A stretch of 64,000 bases of DNA from Methanofollis tationis (lineage in GTDB: Archaea > Halobacteriota > Methanomicrobia > Methanomicrobiales > Methanofollaceae), in contig NZ_JABXWR010000001.1 in assembly GCF_013377755.1 (NCBI RefSeq), positions 1,189,104 through 1,253,103 of the forward strand, in the 5' to 3' direction. The notes below the pieces were generated by a model, which was given only the letters and a program-made list of their open reading frames with translations, was not told the DNA's origin and did not search any database. A program made the position numbers and the translations under genes. Numbering within the stretch: the first letter of the stretch is position 1; each line of letters starts with the position of its first letter. Shown in pieces: positions 30,001-62,132 of the stretch.

Positions 30001-32724
30001 TCACCCCACCCCCCTCCCCTCATTCCACGCCCTCACCACCCGCGCATAACACCTCTCGCACAACAGCACCCGCCCGTCCCCCGACCGGTACACCGCCCGC
30101 CCCTCATTACACACGCAGCACCGGCCAAGATCGGTCTTCACCCGCGCAAACTCCGTGTGGTCCAGCACGCCGGGGAGGGGCAGCACACCTGACCGCAGTT
30201 TCACCTTTTCACCTCCCTTCGACACCTTTCGACCGGCGTCGGAAACGGATCCGGGCCCATCCCTTGCGCACATCGACGTTTCGCCATCGCTCCGCCGTTT
30301 TGAAAAACTACTTTCACCAGACCGTGAACCACAGGCACCCGCACCCATACCTCCGCCCTCGCCACCCGTTCTCTGTGCTTCTTCAGAATGGTGAAAAGAG
30401 GTAGTTATGTACGTACATTGATCATCTGATCCGTCTGCAATTCCTGATCCGGCATCATCACGCCCCTCCCGCTCTTTTCGACCGGAGGTGATAACCCGTC
30501 GAAAACCGTCGAAAGTGTCGTCATCAGGATCGTCGTCCAGCCAGACCCCGGTATTTGCCGTCCACTGCCGGTAGCGCACCGGATCGAAGAGGAAGTGCAG
30601 CTCGTGCCGTTTCACCGGAACCCCGCAGTCGCCCTCGCTCACCGTCGTCCTGACCACGCTCACCGCCGGACACTTCTCCAGCAGCCCGGCGTAGGTCCGT
30701 CCCCTCCTCTCGTGCCCCTGCAGCACCCTGTAGGCCTGCTGGTAGGTCACACCGAGCGCCTCCTGCACCTGCCTGATCGTAAACACCCGGAGGCCCATCG
30801 CCGCCACCGTCTCCAGCGCCGCCGCCTCGTTCTTCGTCAGCTTCGTCTCCTGCCCGCCGGCCGTCCCGTTCAGGCTGCCATAGAGCCGGGCCGCCGCGGC
30901 GAAATCCTCCGGGGACGCGAGCACCCGGCCCTCCCCGTCGCGCTCCCGCTGCAGGAAGAAGAGGCGGGCGCGGGCCTTGATCAGGTCGAAGAGCATGCCG
31001 GGGTTCCGGCGGTTCTGCGCCGCCGAGAAGTGGATGGCCCTCGCAAACGGGATGCGGACCGGCAGGACCTCTTCCCTGACCGCCTCCCAGAGCGCCCGGG
31101 CGGTGAGCACGTCCTCGTCCTCCCCCATCGACGGCCCGACCGCCTCCGCCTCCTTCATGTGCTGGAGCACCCGCTCGTCCTGCTCTCTCGAATCGTCGAT
31201 CCAGACGGTGAGCATCCGGTTCATCACCTGGTCGTCGCCCGGGTCCTCGACCTTCGCGAGCCACCAGACGCAGCGTTCCGGGATCCGGCAGACCTGGAGT
31301 TTGCGGTCGGCGGTGACGGTGCGGTGCTCGATCGGCTCCCTGAAGTTCGCCGTCGCAGACTTGAGGACCTCCTGCAGGTCGTCGGAGAGGGAGACGTCGT
31401 CGAAGAGGAGGACGGTGCCGGGCTGCAGGCTGTCGTGGTAGTAGAGCGCCTTGTTCGAGACGGTGCCCGTGAGCCTGGCCGTCTCCGGGAGGAGGTTGAT
31501 CATCGCCGTGCAGGCGTGGCTCTTCCCCTTCCCCGAGTTGCCCGAGATGGCGACGTGCAGCCCGTTCGTGTTCTCCACCGACTGCGAGGCGACCGAGATC
31601 GCCAGGCACTCGGCGACGGTGCGGTCGCCCACGTGCTCCCGATTGAAGGTGTCCAGGAGGAAGGCGAGGGGATCGCCGTCCCTGAGAATGGCGAGGGCTT
31701 TCTCCCTGAATGCCGGCGCCGGGGGCGGGGGGGGAGGCGTGGGCGGCGCCTCCTTCTTCTTCTCGTGCCGCGCCCGCAGCTCGGGCCACCGCTGCACCCC
31801 GCCGCCGCAGGAGGCGTGGTGGCACCCGGCGTAGACCGCTCCCGAGGGGAACTGGATCGCAAAGGCGCCGTCGTGATGGGCGGCGGAGAACGGGCAGTCC
31901 TCCAGCACATAGAGGGTGCCGCCCTGCCAGGGTTTACTGCTCCGCACGCCGATCCCGTGCTCACGGAGCCATGCCGCAAGGTCGGTCCCGGCCCCCTTCG
32001 AGGGCGCCGGGGCCTCGGCCGGGAGGAGGGCGGCGATCCGGCCGAGGAGATCGACCGGCACCGTCTTCACCTCTCCGGGCGCCGGGAGCATCGCTGATCG
32101 CCGGTGCGGCCGCTCCGGCGTGTGGTCCCCTTTCCGGGAGACGGTGCCGTAGAGTTTCCAGATCCGGGCGGCGTTCGAGTTGGCGGTGTCGACCGTCACG
32201 GTCTCGTCCGAGAACAGGGCGTCCAGGGTGGCGAGCACGCCCTTCACCAGGGCCGTCGCATCATTCGGGAGGTCGATCCGGTAGAGCAGGTGCGCCCCGT
32301 TCCCCGAGTCGGCCCGGATCGGCGCGGGGAAGCCCTGCTCCGCGAGCCAGAGGGCGATCTCGTCGGCCTTCGCGAGCGCCGCCTCGTGCTCCGCCCCGGT
32401 GGACGACACCCCGCTCGGCCGCACCGGGTCGAGGTCGACGGGCAGCCAGCGCCGGCGCACGATGTCGGCGTCGGCCGTGGTGGGATCGCTCCTGGTCAGC
32501 CGCATCTTCACCCGGTTCGCCCGCCGGGCGAGCAGGGCCGGGTTCACTTCATTGAGGGTGACGTAGATCCCCCGCACCTCGGGGTCGGCGTCCAGGGCCT
32601 CGGCGGCCTCGGCGCACTTCGCCAGATCGTCGAAGTAGCCCGAGTGCGTGAACCGGTCCGCGAGCGCCCTGACCTCCACGACGCCGCCCGCGGGAAACAG
32701 GGCGGCGAGGGCCTGCCTGATCAC
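30001..32724 (-). CDS. Primase-helicase of an integrated element
   Basis: 907 aa. N-terminal region (about 1-230) has AEP primase/polymerase features: WLPVDLDPVRPSG metal-binding aspartates, RADSGNGAHLLYRIDLP, and SNAARIWKLYGTVSRKGDH. A CHC2-like zinc segment follows (EDCPFSAAHHDG, AGCHHASCGGG). The central ATPase has Walker A SGNSGKGKSHACTAMI and Walker B GTVLLFDDVSLSDDL. A low-complexity linker ends in a four-Cys finger (CCVCNEGRA, LLCERCYARVV). This layout is typical of replication proteins of archaeal plasmids and integrated elements. It overlaps the downstream-numbered 99-aa gene by 4 nt, so a replication operon. Confidence 0.8.
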   Translation of the reverse strand: MIRQALAALFPAGGVVEVRALADRFTHSGYFDDLAKCAEAAEALDADPEVRGIYVTLNEVNPALLARRANRVKMRLTRSDPTTADADIVRRRWLPVDLDPVRPSGVSSTGAEHEAALAKADEIALWLAEQGFPAPIRADSGNGAHLLYRIDLPNDATALVKGVLATLDALFSDETVTVDTANSNAARIWKLYGTVSRKGDHTPERPHRRSAMLPAPGEVKTVPVDLLGRIAALLPAEAPAPSKGAGTDLAAWLREHGIGVRSSKPWQGGTLYVLEDCPFSAAHHDGAFAIQFPSGAVYAGCHHASCGGGVQRWPELRARHEKKKEAPPTPPPPPPAPAFREKALAILRDGDPLAFLLDTFNREHVGDRTVAECLAISVASQSVENTNGLHVAISGNSGKGKSHACTAMINLLPETARLTGTVSNKALYYHDSLQPGTVLLFDDVSLSDDLQEVLKSATANFREPIEHRTVTADRKLQVCRIPERCVWWLAKVEDPGDDQVMNRMLTVWIDDSREQDERVLQHMKEAEAVGPSMGEDEDVLTARALWEAVREEVLPVRIPFARAIHFSAAQNRRNPGMLFDLIKARARLFFLQRERDGEGRVLASPEDFAAAARLYGSLNGTAGGQETKLTKNEAAALETVAAMGLRVFTIRQVQEALGVTYQQAYRVLQGHERRGRTYAGLLEKCPAVSVVRTTVSEGDCGVPVKRHELHFLFDPVRYRQWTANTGVWLDDDPDDDTFDGFRRVITSGRKEREGRDDAGSGIADGSDDQCTYITTSFHHSEEAQRTGGEGGGMGAGACGSRSGESSFSKRRSDGETSMCARDGPGSVSDAGRKVSKGGEKVKLRSGVLPLPGVLDHTEFARVKTDLGRCCVCNEGRAVYRSGDGRVLLCERCYARVVRAWNEGRGVG

Positions 32725-33020
32725 AGGAACCCCCCGGGCACGAGCGGAAACAGCGGCGCCGAGGCCGCCTCCCCGGTGACGACCCGGCGGAAACTCACCA
32801 GGGGCACGATGAAGGGGCCCCTGACCGTGAACACCCGCACCGCCCGGCCGCCCGGGCTCACCGCCGCGTGCCCGGCGATCGCCGTCCCCTCCCCGGTCAC
32901 CGGGACGGCCCGGCCATAGAAGAGGAGGGCCCGCAGGTCCTCGGCGGCAATCCGGTAGCGCATCGACCCGATGAGCAGATACAGGGCATCGTCCGAGCCC
33001 AGGCGGAGGGTGGCGTTCAT
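32721..33020 (-). CDS. Hypothetical 99-aa protein in primase operon
   Basis: No family recognised. Beta-rich small protein (MNATLRLGSDDALYLLIGSM, then VRVFTVRGPFIVPLVSFRRV). ATG 33020 overlaps the stop of the preceding 50-aa gene (ATGA), and its own end overlaps the primase start (ATGA), so all three are translationally coupled. The longer upstream frame is an overlap artefact. An accessory replication or copy-control role is only positional inference. Confidence 0.65.
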   Translation of the reverse strand: MNATLRLGSDDALYLLIGSMRYRIAAEDLRALLFYGRAVPVTGEGTAIAGHAAVSPGGRAVRVFTVRGPFIVPLVSFRRVVTGEAASAPLFPLVPGGFL

Positions 33021-33169
33021 GCCCCCTCCCGCGTCACCACGGCGATCGCATAGCAGTGCCGCCCGGTCCGGCGGACATATATCTCGGAGATCACGCCGCC
33101 GAAGCGGCGGATCTCCCCGGCGATCGCGATCGGCACCAGGTACAGGGGCACCGGCTCCGCGGTGTTCAT
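33017..33169 (-). CDS. Hypothetical 50-aa protein, first gene of primase operon
   Basis: Short beta-rich protein (MNTAEPVPLYLVPIAIAGEI, ending HCYAIAVVTREGA). ATG 33169 is preceded by GGAAGGAGAG, the best ribosome-binding site of this operon, which decides against the longer frame. Function unknown. Confidence 0.6.
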   Translation of the reverse strand: MNTAEPVPLYLVPIAIAGEIRRFGGVISEIYVRRTGRHCYAIAVVTREGA

Positions 33170-33580
33170 CGCTCTCCTTCCGGCGGTCCTCCCTGAACAT
33201 GTGTTGGCGCACGATTCGGTCCGGGGGCTGCCGCCTCTCTCCTTCTCAACCCATCCCCGCTCCGTGGCCGGGGGTTCTGCATGGTTCTCTCTCATGGTTT
33301 TTTTCTCCGGTGCGAAACCGCCGCAGCGGGCGGCCCGCATCAAGAGATTGATCGGCGGGAACCGGCATAAATGAAAGCAACGGAGGGTGAAAGAGAAAAA
33401 TCATTGTATTTATGCGCTTCTTTTGACGGGGCGGGGTGAATGTGTCTGCGGCGGCGGGGGCTGAACGGCCGTGGAGGGCTTCATGGCGCATATCGAGGTC
33501 GAAAGAAGAAACAGGCGGCGCATAGTGGCATGGCGAGGGCCTGCGCGCCGGCAGACCTTACCCGGGAAAAAAGGAGCCCT
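33170..33580. other. Non-coding stretch ahead of primase operon
   Basis: About 410 nt. An AT-richer patch at 33370-33425 (AAAATCATTGTATTTATG) could be the promoter of the minus-strand primase operon or an origin for the element. No tRNA, attachment site or iteron was recognised. Confidence 0.4.
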
Positions 33581-34504
33581 TCACCTGCCCGGATAGTTCG
33601 TGACGACGATCTCGGTGATCTCCCCCCGCCCCCTCGCGTCCGAGTTGATCATCCGCCGTGCAGGCACCCGCTCGATCGTGAACTTCGCGTAGAGGCGGTC
33701 GAAGAAATCGTCCTCCGGGTCGATATTTTTCGGGTCCGAGTTGCTCAGCATCGCCTTCGCCCCCCGCCGGTCGCACCGTGCGAAAAATGCGGCGAGCCTC
33801 TCCTGCCCGGCGTCGTCGAACCCGCCCCTCGCATACCCGGTGAACGAGGCGGTGGCGCTCAGGGGCCGATAGGGCGGGTCGAAGTAGACGAAGGATTTTT
33901 TATTGATGTACCGGAACGACCGCTCGAAGTCGCCGTGATGGACCTCCGTGTTCTCCAGCGCCGCGGCGCAGGCCCGCAGCACCTCCGGGTACACGATCCG
34001 CGGGTTTTTGTAGCGCCCGAAGGGGGCGTTGAACGCCCCCCGGGAGTTCACCCGGAAGAGGCCGTTGTAGCAGGTCCGATTCAGGAAGATCAGCCGGGCC
34101 GCCCGTGAGATCCACGCCTTCCCGTAGCGTTTGAAGGTGATATCCTGTTTCGTCCGGTTGAACTCGGTGCGGACGGCATAAAAATAATCCCGCCGCCCCT
34201 CGTCGTCTTTCGCCAGGAACGCTTCGGTGATGCCGGAGAGGTCCTCGATGAGGGCGTCCACGTCCCTCTTGACGACGCTGTAGGCGAGCACCAGCTCCTC
34301 GTTGACGTCGAAGATATGGCATTTCTCAAAGGGGAAGAGGGTATTGAAGTGAAAAAACACCGCACCCCCGCCGACAAACGGCTCCACGAAGGTGGTGATT
34401 TCACCGTCGGCCAGTCCCTCCGGGATCCGTTCGGTGAAGGCGTCGAGGAGCTGGGTCTTTCCGCCTGCCCACTTGAGAAACGGTCGTGCGTCAGCCTTCG
34501 GCAT
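33581..34504 (-). CDS. dam: Dam-type DNA adenine methyltransferase (D12 class)
   Basis: Adenine-N6 methylase of the D12/Dam family, 307 aa from ATG 34504. Seen: N-terminal PFLKWAGGKTQLLDAF, SAM-binding TFVEPFVGGGAVFF, RLIFLNRTCYNGLFRVN, and the catalytic motif SFVYFDPPYRPLSATASF. The last three motifs are characteristic of EcoDam/DpnM enzymes that recognise GATC, though specificity cannot be proven by eye. ATG 34567 is an alternative start adding 21 residues. No restriction nuclease is adjacent, so it looks solitary. It lies at the edge of the integrated element. Confidence 0.9.
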   Translation of the reverse strand: MPKADARPFLKWAGGKTQLLDAFTERIPEGLADGEITTFVEPFVGGGAVFFHFNTLFPFEKCHIFDVNEELVLAYSVVKRDVDALIEDLSGITEAFLAKDDEGRRDYFYAVRTEFNRTKQDITFKRYGKAWISRAARLIFLNRTCYNGLFRVNSRGAFNAPFGRYKNPRIVYPEVLRACAAALENTEVHHGDFERSFRYINKKSFVYFDPPYRPLSATASFTGYARGGFDDAGQERLAAFFARCDRRGAKAMLSNSDPKNIDPEDDFFDRLYAKFTIERVPARRMINSDARGRGEITEIVVTNYPGR

Positions 34505-34627
34505 GGTAAATCTGCGCTCTGCTGGTTTTTTGAACCCATGATAGTTTGGTTTGAGAGAATTTAGCATTAGCGAAGGGGGCCGGGATGACCGCCGGCGCAC
34601 CCCGTGCCCGCGTCTAAAAACAGCCCT

Positions 34628-56751: not shown

Positions 56752-56775
56752 ACCCCTTTGTTTCGACTGGAACGG
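56752..56775 (-). promoter_or_regulatory. Origin recognition box 1
   Basis: ACCCCTTTGTTTCGACTGGA on the plus strand, i.e. TTCCAGTCGAAACAAAGGGG on the minus strand: the archaeal ORB core with its G-string. Confidence 0.8.
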
Positions 56776-56857
56776 GTGGAGAGGAGGAGGGGGATTGGAG
56801 GTGGGGATCATAGGGGGATCTCCCGGTGATCCTGATCCGGGGATCGCGATCCGCCCT

Positions 56858-56977
56858 GATCGTTCTGACCTGGATCGTTCTGACCTGGATCGTTCTGACC
56901 TGGATCGTTCTGACCTGGATCACTCTGATCCAGATCGCTCTGATCCAGATCGCTCTGATCCAGATCGCTCTGATCCC
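56858..56977 (+). repeat. Eight tandem 15-bp GATC iterons at the origin
   Basis: Exactly 120 bp: four identical GATCGTTCTGACCTG units (56858-56917) followed by four GATC(A/G)CTCTGATCC(A/C) units (56918-56977). The second set carries two GATC each. Continuing GATC palindromes bring the total to about 30 GATC between 56806 and 57078. Confidence 0.95.
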
Positions 56978-57165
56978 TGATCCGCGCTCTCCCCTGATCC
57001 GGGGATCGCGATCGATCGCGATCTGGCCTTATTGCTCTGATCGGGATCCGCGATCGATCGCGATCTCTGTCCTGAGATCAGAGAAGATTTATAGTATCAG
57101 TGGATAAACCTACAACAAGCTGTTTTCACTGTGGTAAAGAAAAACAGGTCACCTGTTTTCCACAT

Positions 57166-57190
57166 GCTCCAGTCGAAATAAAGGGGTCCC
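57166..57190 (+). promoter_or_regulatory. Origin recognition box 2
   Basis: CTCCAGTCGAAATAAAGGGG: ORB dyad followed by the GGGG string, plus orientation. Confidence 0.75.
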
Positions 57191-57246: not shown

Positions 57247-57282
57247 TTTATAAGCAGGTTCCAATGGAAACAAAGGGGTTAT
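57247..57282 (+). promoter_or_regulatory. orc1 promoter overlapped by origin recognition box 3
   Basis: TTTATAAG at 57247-57254 is a TATA box that predicts a start near 57275-57280. The ORB TTCCAATGGAAACAAAGGGG at 57259-57278 covers that start, so Orc1 binding should repress its own gene (inference). Confidence 0.75.
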
Positions 57283-57348: not shown

Positions 57349-58632
57349 ATGTCTGAGAATGAAACTCCGTCCTTTGGCCTCTTCCAGAAGTTCCTTTCGA
57401 ACAACCGGATCTTCAAAAACCGGGAGGTTCTCCGCCACTCGTACCGTCCCCAGATCCTCCCTCACCGTCGTCCCCAGATCGATGCGATCGCATCGATCCT
57501 CGCCCCGGCGCTGAAGAACGAGACCCCCTCGAACATCCTGATCTACGGGAAGACCGGGACCGGCAAGACCGCGAGCGTCAGGTATGTCGGGGCAGAACTC
57601 GAGAAGGTGGCCGCGAGCATGTCCACCGGGTGCAAGGTCGTCCACCTCAACTGCGAGGTGATCGATACCCAGTACCGGGTGCTCGCCCAGATCGCCAAAG
57701 GGCTCGAGGACCTCGACGCGACCCCGAGCGACAAGGCGCGTGCGCACATACCGATGACCGGGTGGCCGACCGATCAGGTCTACACCGAACTGAAAAACCA
57801 GCTCGAAGCAGCTGGAGGGGTGCTGGTCATCGTCCTCGACGAGATCGACAAACTGGTGAAGAAGAGCGGGGACGAGACCCTGTACAACCTCACCAGGATC
57901 AACTCAGACCTCAGGTCGTCGAAGGTCTCGATGATCGGGATCTCCAATGACCTGCGGTTCACCGATTTCCTCGACCCCCGCGTCCTCTCCTCCCTTTCAG
58001 AGGAGGAGATCGTCTTCCCGCCGTACAACGCCCCGCAACTCTGCGACATCCTCACCCAGCGCGCCCAGATGGCCTTCATGGCGGGCGGGCTCGACGAGGG
58101 CGTCATCCCGCTCTGCGCCGCCTTCGCCGCGCAGGAGCATGGCGACGCCAGGCGTGCTCTCGACCTCCTGCGGGTCTCGGGCGAACTTGCCGATAGGGAG
58201 AACGGCGAGCGCGTCGGGGAGAAGCACGTCCGCATGGCCCTCGAAAAGATCGAGACCGACTCGATGATCGAGTGCATCTCCACCCTGCCCACCCAGAGCA
58301 AGGTCGTACTCTACTCGATGCTCCTGCTCGAAGAGATGGACAAGAAGATCTTCACCTCAGGCGAGGTGACCCGGGTCTACCGGGACGTCAGCCGGATCGT
58401 TGACATCGATCCCCTCACCCACCGCCGGATCACCGACCTCATCTCCGAACTGAACATGCTCGGGGTGATCAACACCCGGGTCGTCTCCAAAGGGCGGTAC
58501 GGAAGGACAAAAGAGATGTGGTTTGACACCAACACCAAAAAGATACAGGAAGTACTCGCGAAGGATCCCAGACTCTCTGAGGACCGCCTTGCCCAGGTCG
58601 ACCTCAACCGCCTGAGGGCCTCGTTCCGGTGA
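57349..58632 (+). CDS. orc1: Orc1/Cdc6 replication initiator
   Basis: 427-aa origin-binding AAA+ protein. Walker A YGKTGTGKTASVRYV near residue 65, Walker B VLVIVLDEIDKL, sensor 1 MIGISNDLRF, arginine-finger region LDPRVLSSLSEEEIVFPPYN, then a C-terminal winged helix (about 330-420; LPTQSKVVLYSMLLLEEMD, RRITDLISELNMLGVINTR). ATG 57349 matches the family N-terminus; the frame extending upstream crosses the ORBs and is discarded. It sits beside its own origin and overlaps nothing; the Lrp gene follows 5 nt later. Confidence 0.96.
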   Translation: MSENETPSFGLFQKFLSNNRIFKNREVLRHSYRPQILPHRRPQIDAIASILAPALKNETPSNILIYGKTGTGKTASVRYVGAELEKVAASMSTGCKVVHLNCEVIDTQYRVLAQIAKGLEDLDATPSDKARAHIPMTGWPTDQVYTELKNQLEAAGGVLVIVLDEIDKLVKKSGDETLYNLTRINSDLRSSKVSMIGISNDLRFTDFLDPRVLSSLSEEEIVFPPYNAPQLCDILTQRAQMAFMAGGLDEGVIPLCAAFAAQEHGDARRALDLLRVSGELADRENGERVGEKHVRMALEKIETDSMIECISTLPTQSKVVLYSMLLLEEMDKKIFTSGEVTRVYRDVSRIVDIDPLTHRRITDLISELNMLGVINTRVVSKGRYGRTKEMWFDTNTKKIQEVLAKDPRLSEDRLAQVDLNRLRASFR

Positions 58633-58637
58633 TAACA

Positions 58638-59129
58638 ATGGACGAAAAAGATCTCTTAATCCTCCATCTCCTGGAGGAAAACAGCCAGGTGCCTCCCGGC
58701 GAACTGGCGACGATGGTAGAGCTCACGGTCGAAGACGTAGAACGGCGGATCCGCGCGATGGAAGAGGCCAGGATCATCAGGAAGTACGCCGCCGTCGTCG
58801 ACTGGGAGCGCGCCGGCAGGGACGAGGTGAGCTCGATCATCGCCCTCAAGGTCTCGCCCGAGCGGGACTTCGGCTACGACAAGATCGCCGAGCGGATCGC
58901 GCGCTTCAGGGAGGTCAGGGCCCTTCGCCTGGTCTCGGGCCGGTACGATTTCATCCTCCTGGTCAAGGGGAAGAACATGCAGGAGATCGCCCGTTTCGTC
59001 TCCGAGCATATCGCCCCGATGGACCGGATCAGGGAGACGACGACCCAGTTCGTGATGAAGACCTACAAGGAGAACGGCACCCCGTACGACGAGCGCGAGG
59101 CGGGGGAGCGTCTGCCGTACTCCTTCTGA
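58638..59129 (+). CDS. Lrp/AsnC-family regulator
   Basis: 163 aa: N-terminal winged helix (LLILHLLEENSQVPPGELAT, VELTVEDVERRIRAMEEARI) and C-terminal RAM/ligand domain (EVSSIIALKVSPERDFGYDK, LVSGRYDFILLVKGKNMQEI). GGTGA precedes ATG 58638. The aminotransferase follows 8 nt later; Lrp-aminotransferase pairs are common in Methanomicrobiales, so the regulator probably senses an amino acid handled by that enzyme. Confidence 0.93.
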   Translation: MDEKDLLILHLLEENSQVPPGELATMVELTVEDVERRIRAMEEARIIRKYAAVVDWERAGRDEVSSIIALKVSPERDFGYDKIAERIARFREVRALRLVSGRYDFILLVKGKNMQEIARFVSEHIAPMDRIRETTTQFVMKTYKENGTPYDEREAGERLPYSF

Positions 59130-60899: not shown

Positions 60900-62132
60900 T
60901 TCGTCTGAGCCCTGTCTCCTTGTTTGATCATTCCCCCTCCATCGTCAAATATCTTCTGCCGGTCACCCACTCCTCATTGATGTCCATCAGGATGGATCCT
61001 GCCAGCCTGAGGAGTGACTCTTCATTGGGAAAGGCCCCTACAACTTTGGTTCTCCGTTTCAGTTCCTTGTTGACTCTTTCCATCATGTTCGTCGTTCGGA
61101 TCCGCTTTGCGTGCTCTTTCGGGAACGCCGTGTAACTCATAAGTCCCGGGATGAATCTCTCGATCGTATTGGCCGCTTTCCGATATCCTCGTTCGTTCAG
61201 ATCATCTGCAAGCTGCTGAAGTCTTTCCTCGTCCCCATATGCCTCCTTCAAGGACTCAGCAACTTCTTTCTGATGTTTCCGTGGAATATTCTTTAAAACC
61301 GCCCGGGTGCAATGGACCGAGCACATCTGCCACGATGCGCCGAGGAAGGCGGCTTCCGCCGCCTTCTGGATCCCGGCATGACCATCTGAGACAACCATCT
61401 TGACACCCACCAATCCTCGTTCTTTGAGGTCTTCGAACAATCCCGACCAGAACATCTCATTTTCACAATCAGTGATTCTGGCTCCCAGGATTTCCCGGTA
61501 GCCATCCATTCGAACACCGGCGATCACCAGAAGAGCTTTGGTGATGTACCGTGGTCCCTCTCTGACTTTGTAGTACGAAGCATCCACAAAGAGATAGGGA
61601 ATCTCCTGTTCAATCGGCCTCTGAAGGAATGCATGGACCTGTTCATCGAGGTCCTTTGCTATCCTGGATACTGAAGCAGGAGAGAGTTGTTCGATGCCAA
61701 AATGAGCAACAATCTCCTGGATCCGGCGGGTTGAGACTCCCTGAAGGTAGGATTCAAAGATAGCATTCTCAAGAGCCTTCTCAACCCGGGAATAGCGTCC
61801 AAATACCTGTGTTTCGAAGGGAAATTCTCGGAACTGCGGTTTCTGGAGGATCGTTTCTCCATATCGGGTTTTCAGAGATCGCTTCTTGTAGCCGTTTCGG
61901 TGAGCCTTCCGCGCATCGGTTCGTTCATACTGCTCGGCTCCCGCCTGGTGGAGGGCTTCGAGCAGCATCACCTGGTTGAGGAACCAGGTGATGAGGGTCT
62001 TCATGCCATTCTCATTATCGGAAAGATAATCTTCGATTAACGCTAAGGGATCCATGGCCCTGTTTCTCCTTTGTCCAAATCTAGGTTGGATTCAGGGCCA
62101 AATTATTTTTACAGAAGATTCGTTACACTGTC
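60876..62132 (-). mobile_element. IS256-family element, copy C
   Basis: 1257 bp, flanked by the perfect 8-bp duplication GTGATAGA at 60868-60875 and 62133-62140. Against copy B about eleven base differences were seen by eye: nine within the gene, all silent and between about 61480 and 61880, and two near the right end (GACAGTG instead of GATAGTG in the terminal repeat). Confidence 0.95.
60928..62055 (-). CDS. IS256-family transposase, copy C
   Basis: 375 aa, identical in protein to copies A and B despite nine nucleotide differences, which is purifying selection on an active transposase. Same catalytic residues as copy A. Confidence 0.95.
   Translation of the reverse strand: MDPLALIEDYLSDNENGMKTLITWFLNQVMLLEALHQAGAEQYERTDARKAHRNGYKKRSLKTRYGETILQKPQFREFPFETQVFGRYSRVEKALENAIFESYLQGVSTRRIQEIVAHFGIEQLSPASVSRIAKDLDEQVHAFLQRPIEQEIPYLFVDASYYKVREGPRYITKALLVIAGVRMDGYREILGARITDCENEMFWSGLFEDLKERGLVGVKMVVSDGHAGIQKAAEAAFLGASWQMCSVHCTRAVLKNIPRKHQKEVAESLKEAYGDEERLQQLADDLNERGYRKAANTIERFIPGLMSYTAFPKEHAKRIRTTNMMERVNKELKRRTKVVGAFPNEESLLRLAGSILMDINEEWVTGRRYLTMEGE

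Follow-up and report, generated by a model that had tools for sequence, protein, structure and literature searches.

In several prokaryotes the recognition motif of an orphan DNA methyltransferase is clustered at the putative replication origin. Blow et al. (PMC4752239) reported in 2016 motif clusters of four orphan methyltransferases, all at putative origins, including clusters of CTAG (m4C) upstream of orc1/cdc6 in haloarchaea, and in the cases described the clusters track the presence of the enzyme. In enterobacteria, oriC carries a cluster of GATC sites (11 in about 245 bp in E. coli), which are substrates of the Dam methyltransferase and are read by SeqA. GATC methyltransferases are also part of DpnII/LlaDCHI-type restriction-modification systems, e.g. 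on plasmid pSRQ700, where a GATC-specific operon (LlaDCHI) contains two types of methyltransferase and an endonuclease. Finally, a 2023 survey of archaea (PMC10609329) lists a Dam-like GATC orphan methyltransferase group, HG3, as persistent in Methanomicrobiales (15/19) and suggests a common epigenetic function that has not yet been identified.

Here we report that the presumed orc1-linked replication origin in the genus Methanofollis carries a dense GATC array. The analysis started from a 64,000-nucleotide stretch of the Methanofollis tationis genome (assembly GCF_013377755.1, contig NZ_JABXWR010000001.1, positions 1,189,104 to 1,253,103), referred to as the window, and from a first-pass annotation stating that about 30 GATC sites fall in some 270 bp between Origin Recognition Boxes (ORBs) beside orc1/cdc6. 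This observation is correct: 30 GATC sites start within window positions 56806-57078 (the last one, 57076-57079, ends one base beyond that interval) and constitute 42% of the bases, while the number expected by chance is about 3 and not one or two as proposed, since the genome is GATC-rich (10.1 per kb in the window and 11.4 per kb in 399 kb of sampled genome). The next densest 273-bp stretch has 10 sites in the window and 12 in the sample. The Poisson probability is about 1e-19, although tandem copies are not independent events, and against dinucleotide shuffles of the arrays z is 6.3 for this genome and 3.7-10.3 across the genus. The setting was also as described, with the array positioned between an outer, inverted ORB and two inner ORBs upstream of orc1 (Table 1). 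No known RNA or tRNA gene was detected in the window.

Table 1. Features of the orc1-linked region, the methyltransferase loci and neighbouring genes (window positions unless stated otherwise)
Feature	Position	Strand	Remarks
GATC array	56806-57079	.	30 GATC sites
Tandem 15-bp units (eight; 4 + 4 of two types)	56858-56977	+	Four copies of GATCGTTCTGACCTG starting at 56858, 56873, 56888 and 56903; four copies of GATC(A/G)CTCTGATCC(A/C) starting at 56918, 56933, 56948 and 56963
GATCGCGATC palindromes	56842, 57004, 57014, 57056		
Outer ORB	56752-56772	-	Consensus score 18/19; inverted relative to the inner ORBs
Conserved ATTTATAGTA element ending the array	57087-57096	+	Possible unwinding or TATA-box element (function inferred); its TATAGTA present in 11/11 genomes
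Inverted repeat AAAACAGGTCACCTGTTTT	57139-57160	.	Left arm conserved across the genus, spacer not
Inner ORB 1	57167-57187	+	Score 17/19
Inner ORB 2	57259-57279	+	Score 19/19; beside a TATA-like box (TTTATAAG) of orc1
orc1/cdc6 initiator gene	57349-58632	+	427 aa; NF001625 equivalog, 604 bits (cut-off 501); orthologs in 206/232 genomes of the order
Lrp/AsnC-family regulator gene	58629-59129	+	Directly follows orc1; candidate array-binding protein
IS256-family transposase gene	60928-62055	-	A few kilobases downstream of the origin
Dam-family (M.DpnII-like) adenine methyltransferase gene	33581-34510	-	Predicted GATC specificity; TIGR00571, 281 bits; PDB 2dpm (M.DpnII), 2e-52; about 22 kb from the array
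Genes for a 907-aa protein and a 163-aa neighbour, beside the Dam gene	30001-33212	-	Neither matches a Pfam family, the 907-aa protein no NCBIfam family either; both conserved next to Dam in G005
Broken DpnA-like gene of G010	Contig C13 (L182:3696-4133)		At its conserved locus; truncated 146-aa frame
Partial GATC array of G066	L092, about 500-900 bp upstream of orc1		GATCCGATCC pairs

To follow the array in related genomes we compared the regions upstream of orc1 in 12 Methanofollis genomes (G000, the genome of the window, and G001 to G011), of which 11 had a readable upstream region, with those of 60 genomes from the five other families of the order. In all 11 genomes the same interval is GATC-saturated, with 13-38 sites per 300 bp and arrays of 163-625 bp; the contig of G011 ends inside the array and G009 has a run of N in it. 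The inner ORBs are present in 11/11 genomes and the outer inverted ORB in 10/11 (in G011 the contig ends first). In the 60 other genomes the highest value is 16 per 300 bp, in the Methanoculleus-like genome G066, and the next is 11. G066 has three Dam homologs, and its partial array has a different repeat unit at the same place in the origin, possibly an independent start of the same thing. A further 68 named non-Methanofollis loci, many of which overlap the 60 genomes, gave at most 11 per 300 bp. GATC is the only palindromic tetramer that is saturated, and no other saturated tetramer was found at the corresponding origins of the other families. With respect to other origins of the same cells, the upstream regions of 17 orc paralogs have at most 7 sites per 300 bp. 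No second array was found in the genome of the window, neither among 42 strict triple-GATC hits (5 in this array, the rest isolated or overlapping pairs) nor in the 399 kb sampled. Hence, of the two conditions that had been named in advance as refuting the proposal, absence in close relatives and equal density at non-origin sites, neither was fulfilled.

The repeat units, in contrast, differ from genome to genome: the 15-bp units occur only in G000, G011 has GATGGAGATCG units, G001 and G009 have longer units, and the other Methanofollis genomes have different units or none. In aligned parts of seven pairs from two clades (B and C) GATC is kept in 177 of 200 cases (about 89%) compared to 159 of 359 (44%) for control tetramers, while the spacers diverge freely; the pairs share genomes and are therefore not independent. 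For the pair G000/G005 the contrast is weak (19/25 against 108/178) and the GATC columns are not better conserved per base than others (0.197 against 0.194), although the number of sites is held at 30 and 28. Distinct spacers avoid 4 and 5 bp (4 seen, 44 expected under a geometric model), as if each GATC needs room of its own, and favour 7, 10, 14 and 16 bp. In every genome the last GATC starts 7-14 bp before the TATAGTA of the ATTTATAGTA element (14 bp in G000), and between the array and the inner ORB this element is followed by a conserved ACAACAAGCTGTTTT stretch and the AAAACAG/CTGTTTT inverted repeat; this region (57087-57160) could be an unwinding element or the promoter and start of a small transcript.

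With respect to the METHYLTRANSFERASES, the Dam-family enzyme encoded in the window is the only strong PF02086 match in this genome, and no restriction-enzyme gene was recognised beside it (neighbouring genes in Table 1); it may have arrived with a mobile or viral segment. Within the genus, strong PF02086 matches occur in only 4 of 12 genomes, the Dam-family enzyme occurs only in G000, G005 and G003 plus a more distant form in G002, and the densest arrays are in genomes with no Dam homolog. For this reason a simple reading in which the Dam enzyme explains the array was rejected; it was revived in changed form since those genomes (G001, G002, G004, G006-G009 and G011) carry a different, beta-class enzyme of an unrelated family, DpnA-like and with predicted GATC specificity, which is present in seven of the ten array genomes other than G000. 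This enzyme is 49% identical to the second methyltransferase of the pSRQ700 operon, groups with DpnA proteins of GATC restriction operons and not with CcrM, and lacks the CcrM C-terminal domain. It sits in conserved synteny that reaches another family (genome G156) and, where inspected, has no LlaDCHI-like restriction-enzyme neighbour, and so looks vertically inherited and orphan. The flanking genes of the DpnA locus were not found in the stretches of the G000 genome that we sampled. In G010 the middle of the DpnA-like protein (about residues 107-236) is missing and the rest is out of frame; this genome has no Dam match and the smallest array (11 GATC in 163 bp), but it is a draft metagenome genome, 88% complete, and represents one suggestive case only.

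Among 135 good genomes of the order, 102 have a Dam-type match and 27 a DpnA-like match, while only four have both (20.4 expected; hypergeometric 2e-14, phylogeny ignored), as expected if either can supply the same mark. About 125 of the 135 have at least one of the two, yet only Methanofollis, and partly G066, has the array. The predicted capacity for GATC methylation is thus near-universal in the order, supplied by either of two unrelated families, and the array is a later addition in Methanofollis.

Compared to the clusters reported by Blow et al., the locus shares a motif cluster in non-coding DNA at the orthologous origin place in many relatives and, in 10 of 11 array genomes, a conserved orphan methyltransferase for that motif, with specificity predicted from homology. 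It differs in that the motif is GATC (predicted m6A) instead of CTAG, in the density of up to 38 sites per 300 bp, in that the array is in one genus only while the enzyme is in most of the order, with cluster and enzyme tracking each other at best weakly, and in that two unrelated enzyme families alternate. With enterobacterial oriC it shares a GATC cluster within the origin and, in this genome, a Dam-family orphan methyltransferase; however, Orc1 and ORBs replace DnaA boxes, the GATC density is well above that of E. coli oriC, most of the genus uses the DpnA-like enzyme, and a profile search for SeqA (PF03925) gave a match in 0/12 genus genomes with a positive E. coli control. The pSRQ700 operon contains both methyltransferase types found here (38% and 49% identity), but in Methanofollis the two are separate, at different loci, and no LlaDCHI-endonuclease homolog was found among the genes around either, which leaves room for a distant or unrelated GATC nuclease elsewhere. 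The enzyme of the window is most likely of the HG3 group, and in the survey of that group we found no mention of a GATC cluster at an origin or of a DpnA-like substitute in genomes lacking HG3. Among the open-licence papers searched, which included searches for methanogen methylomes with GATC, we found no report of a GATC array at an archaeal origin. New compared to the known clusters are GATC at an archaeal origin, the extreme density, the exchange of enzyme families under a constant motif, and one genome with a wrecked enzyme.

The interpretation in the first-pass annotation is only partly supported by these data. A real, origin-linked and GATC-specific element that recalls Dam-type origins is supported, and a GATC-type orphan methyltransferase gene lies in the same window; the suggestion that the array is an iteron for an unknown initiator is not, since no repeat unit longer than GATC itself is shared between the genomes. 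The statement that such clustering is not known at archaeal origins needs to be amended in view of the haloarchaeal CTAG clusters.

We consider it somewhat more likely than not that the array is a functional, methylation-responsive element of the orc1-linked chromosomal origin of Methanofollis. In this view selection keeps the GATC tetramer itself at very high density between the outer and inner ORBs, next to the presumed unwinding site, and the sites are most likely substrates of an orphan GATC adenine methyltransferase, Dam-type in this genome and DpnA-type in most of the genus. Passage of the fork would turn 30-60 adjacent sites from fully methylated to hemimethylated, re-methylation would be slow or graded, and that state, or a protein that senses it, would delay or license reloading of Orc1 and MCM (the replicative helicase), or affect transcription at the origin, giving a replication-coupled timer. 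Our data show the array, its location, the conservation of GATC, its restriction to this one origin and the methyltransferase genes in 10 of 11 array genomes; that the enzymes methylate GATC is inferred from homology, while methylation of the array in vivo, a reader protein and an effect of methylation state on initiation are inferred by analogy only. Origin activity itself is likewise only inferred: GC skew in the sampled stretches is noisy. More tentatively, Methanofollis may have evolved on its own a SeqA-free, methylation-timed initiation control, in which an Orc1-type origin measures time since replication by the re-methylation of its array, the mark rather than the enzyme is selected so that unrelated GATC methyltransferases replace one another, loss of the enzyme lets the array shrink, and some unknown archaeal protein reads the methylation state.

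The main difficulty is that most of the order has a GATC-type methyltransferase without an array, so the enzyme alone does not predict it, and a methylation-blind platform for a sequence-specific GATC-binding protein (initiator accessory, nucleoid protein or titrator), with incidental methyltransferases, remains a serious although less likely rival. The free spacers, the avoidance of close packing as for occupied sites, and the persistence of an array in G010 without an intact methyltransferase gene agree with such a platform, whereas the motif is exactly the predicted recognition site of a near-universal orphan enzyme, a bare 4-bp site is short for a dedicated protein, the spacing shows no single helical phase and no candidate protein was found. 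We regard it as unlikely that the array regulates transcription, of orc1 or of an untranslated RNA starting at the ATTTATAGTA element, and not origin firing as such. That in every genome the array stops 7-14 bp before a conserved TATA-like element, followed by a conserved stretch and an inverted repeat, is in keeping with this, but the array lies 270-540 bp upstream of orc1, which has its own TATA-like box and ORB nearby, no transcript is known, and the array sits between ORBs, where the unwinding site is expected from the established archaeal origin layout.

A neutral origin, by slippage of a GATC-rich tandem repeat in a GATC-rich genome, or maintenance for hairpin formation by self-complementary words, appears very unlikely. 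The tandem units clearly turn over, the background is high and the single strand folds better than shuffles (z = -3.1); however, the array is present in 11/11 genomes with unrelated units and at no other sampled place, GATC resists substitution while the spacers do not, other palindromic tetramers are not enriched, and GATCGATC, the simplest expansion, is avoided.

How archaea restrict each origin to one firing per cycle is largely open, as is the role of orphan methyltransferases in archaea. Here an extreme, genus-wide, single-locus signal ties a predicted methylation motif to the main origin, and it comes with natural contrasts: two enzyme types, one wrecked enzyme, and relatives with the enzyme but no array. 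In Methanofollis a chemical mark may thus control when the chromosome is copied, as in E. coli but without the E. coli reader protein.
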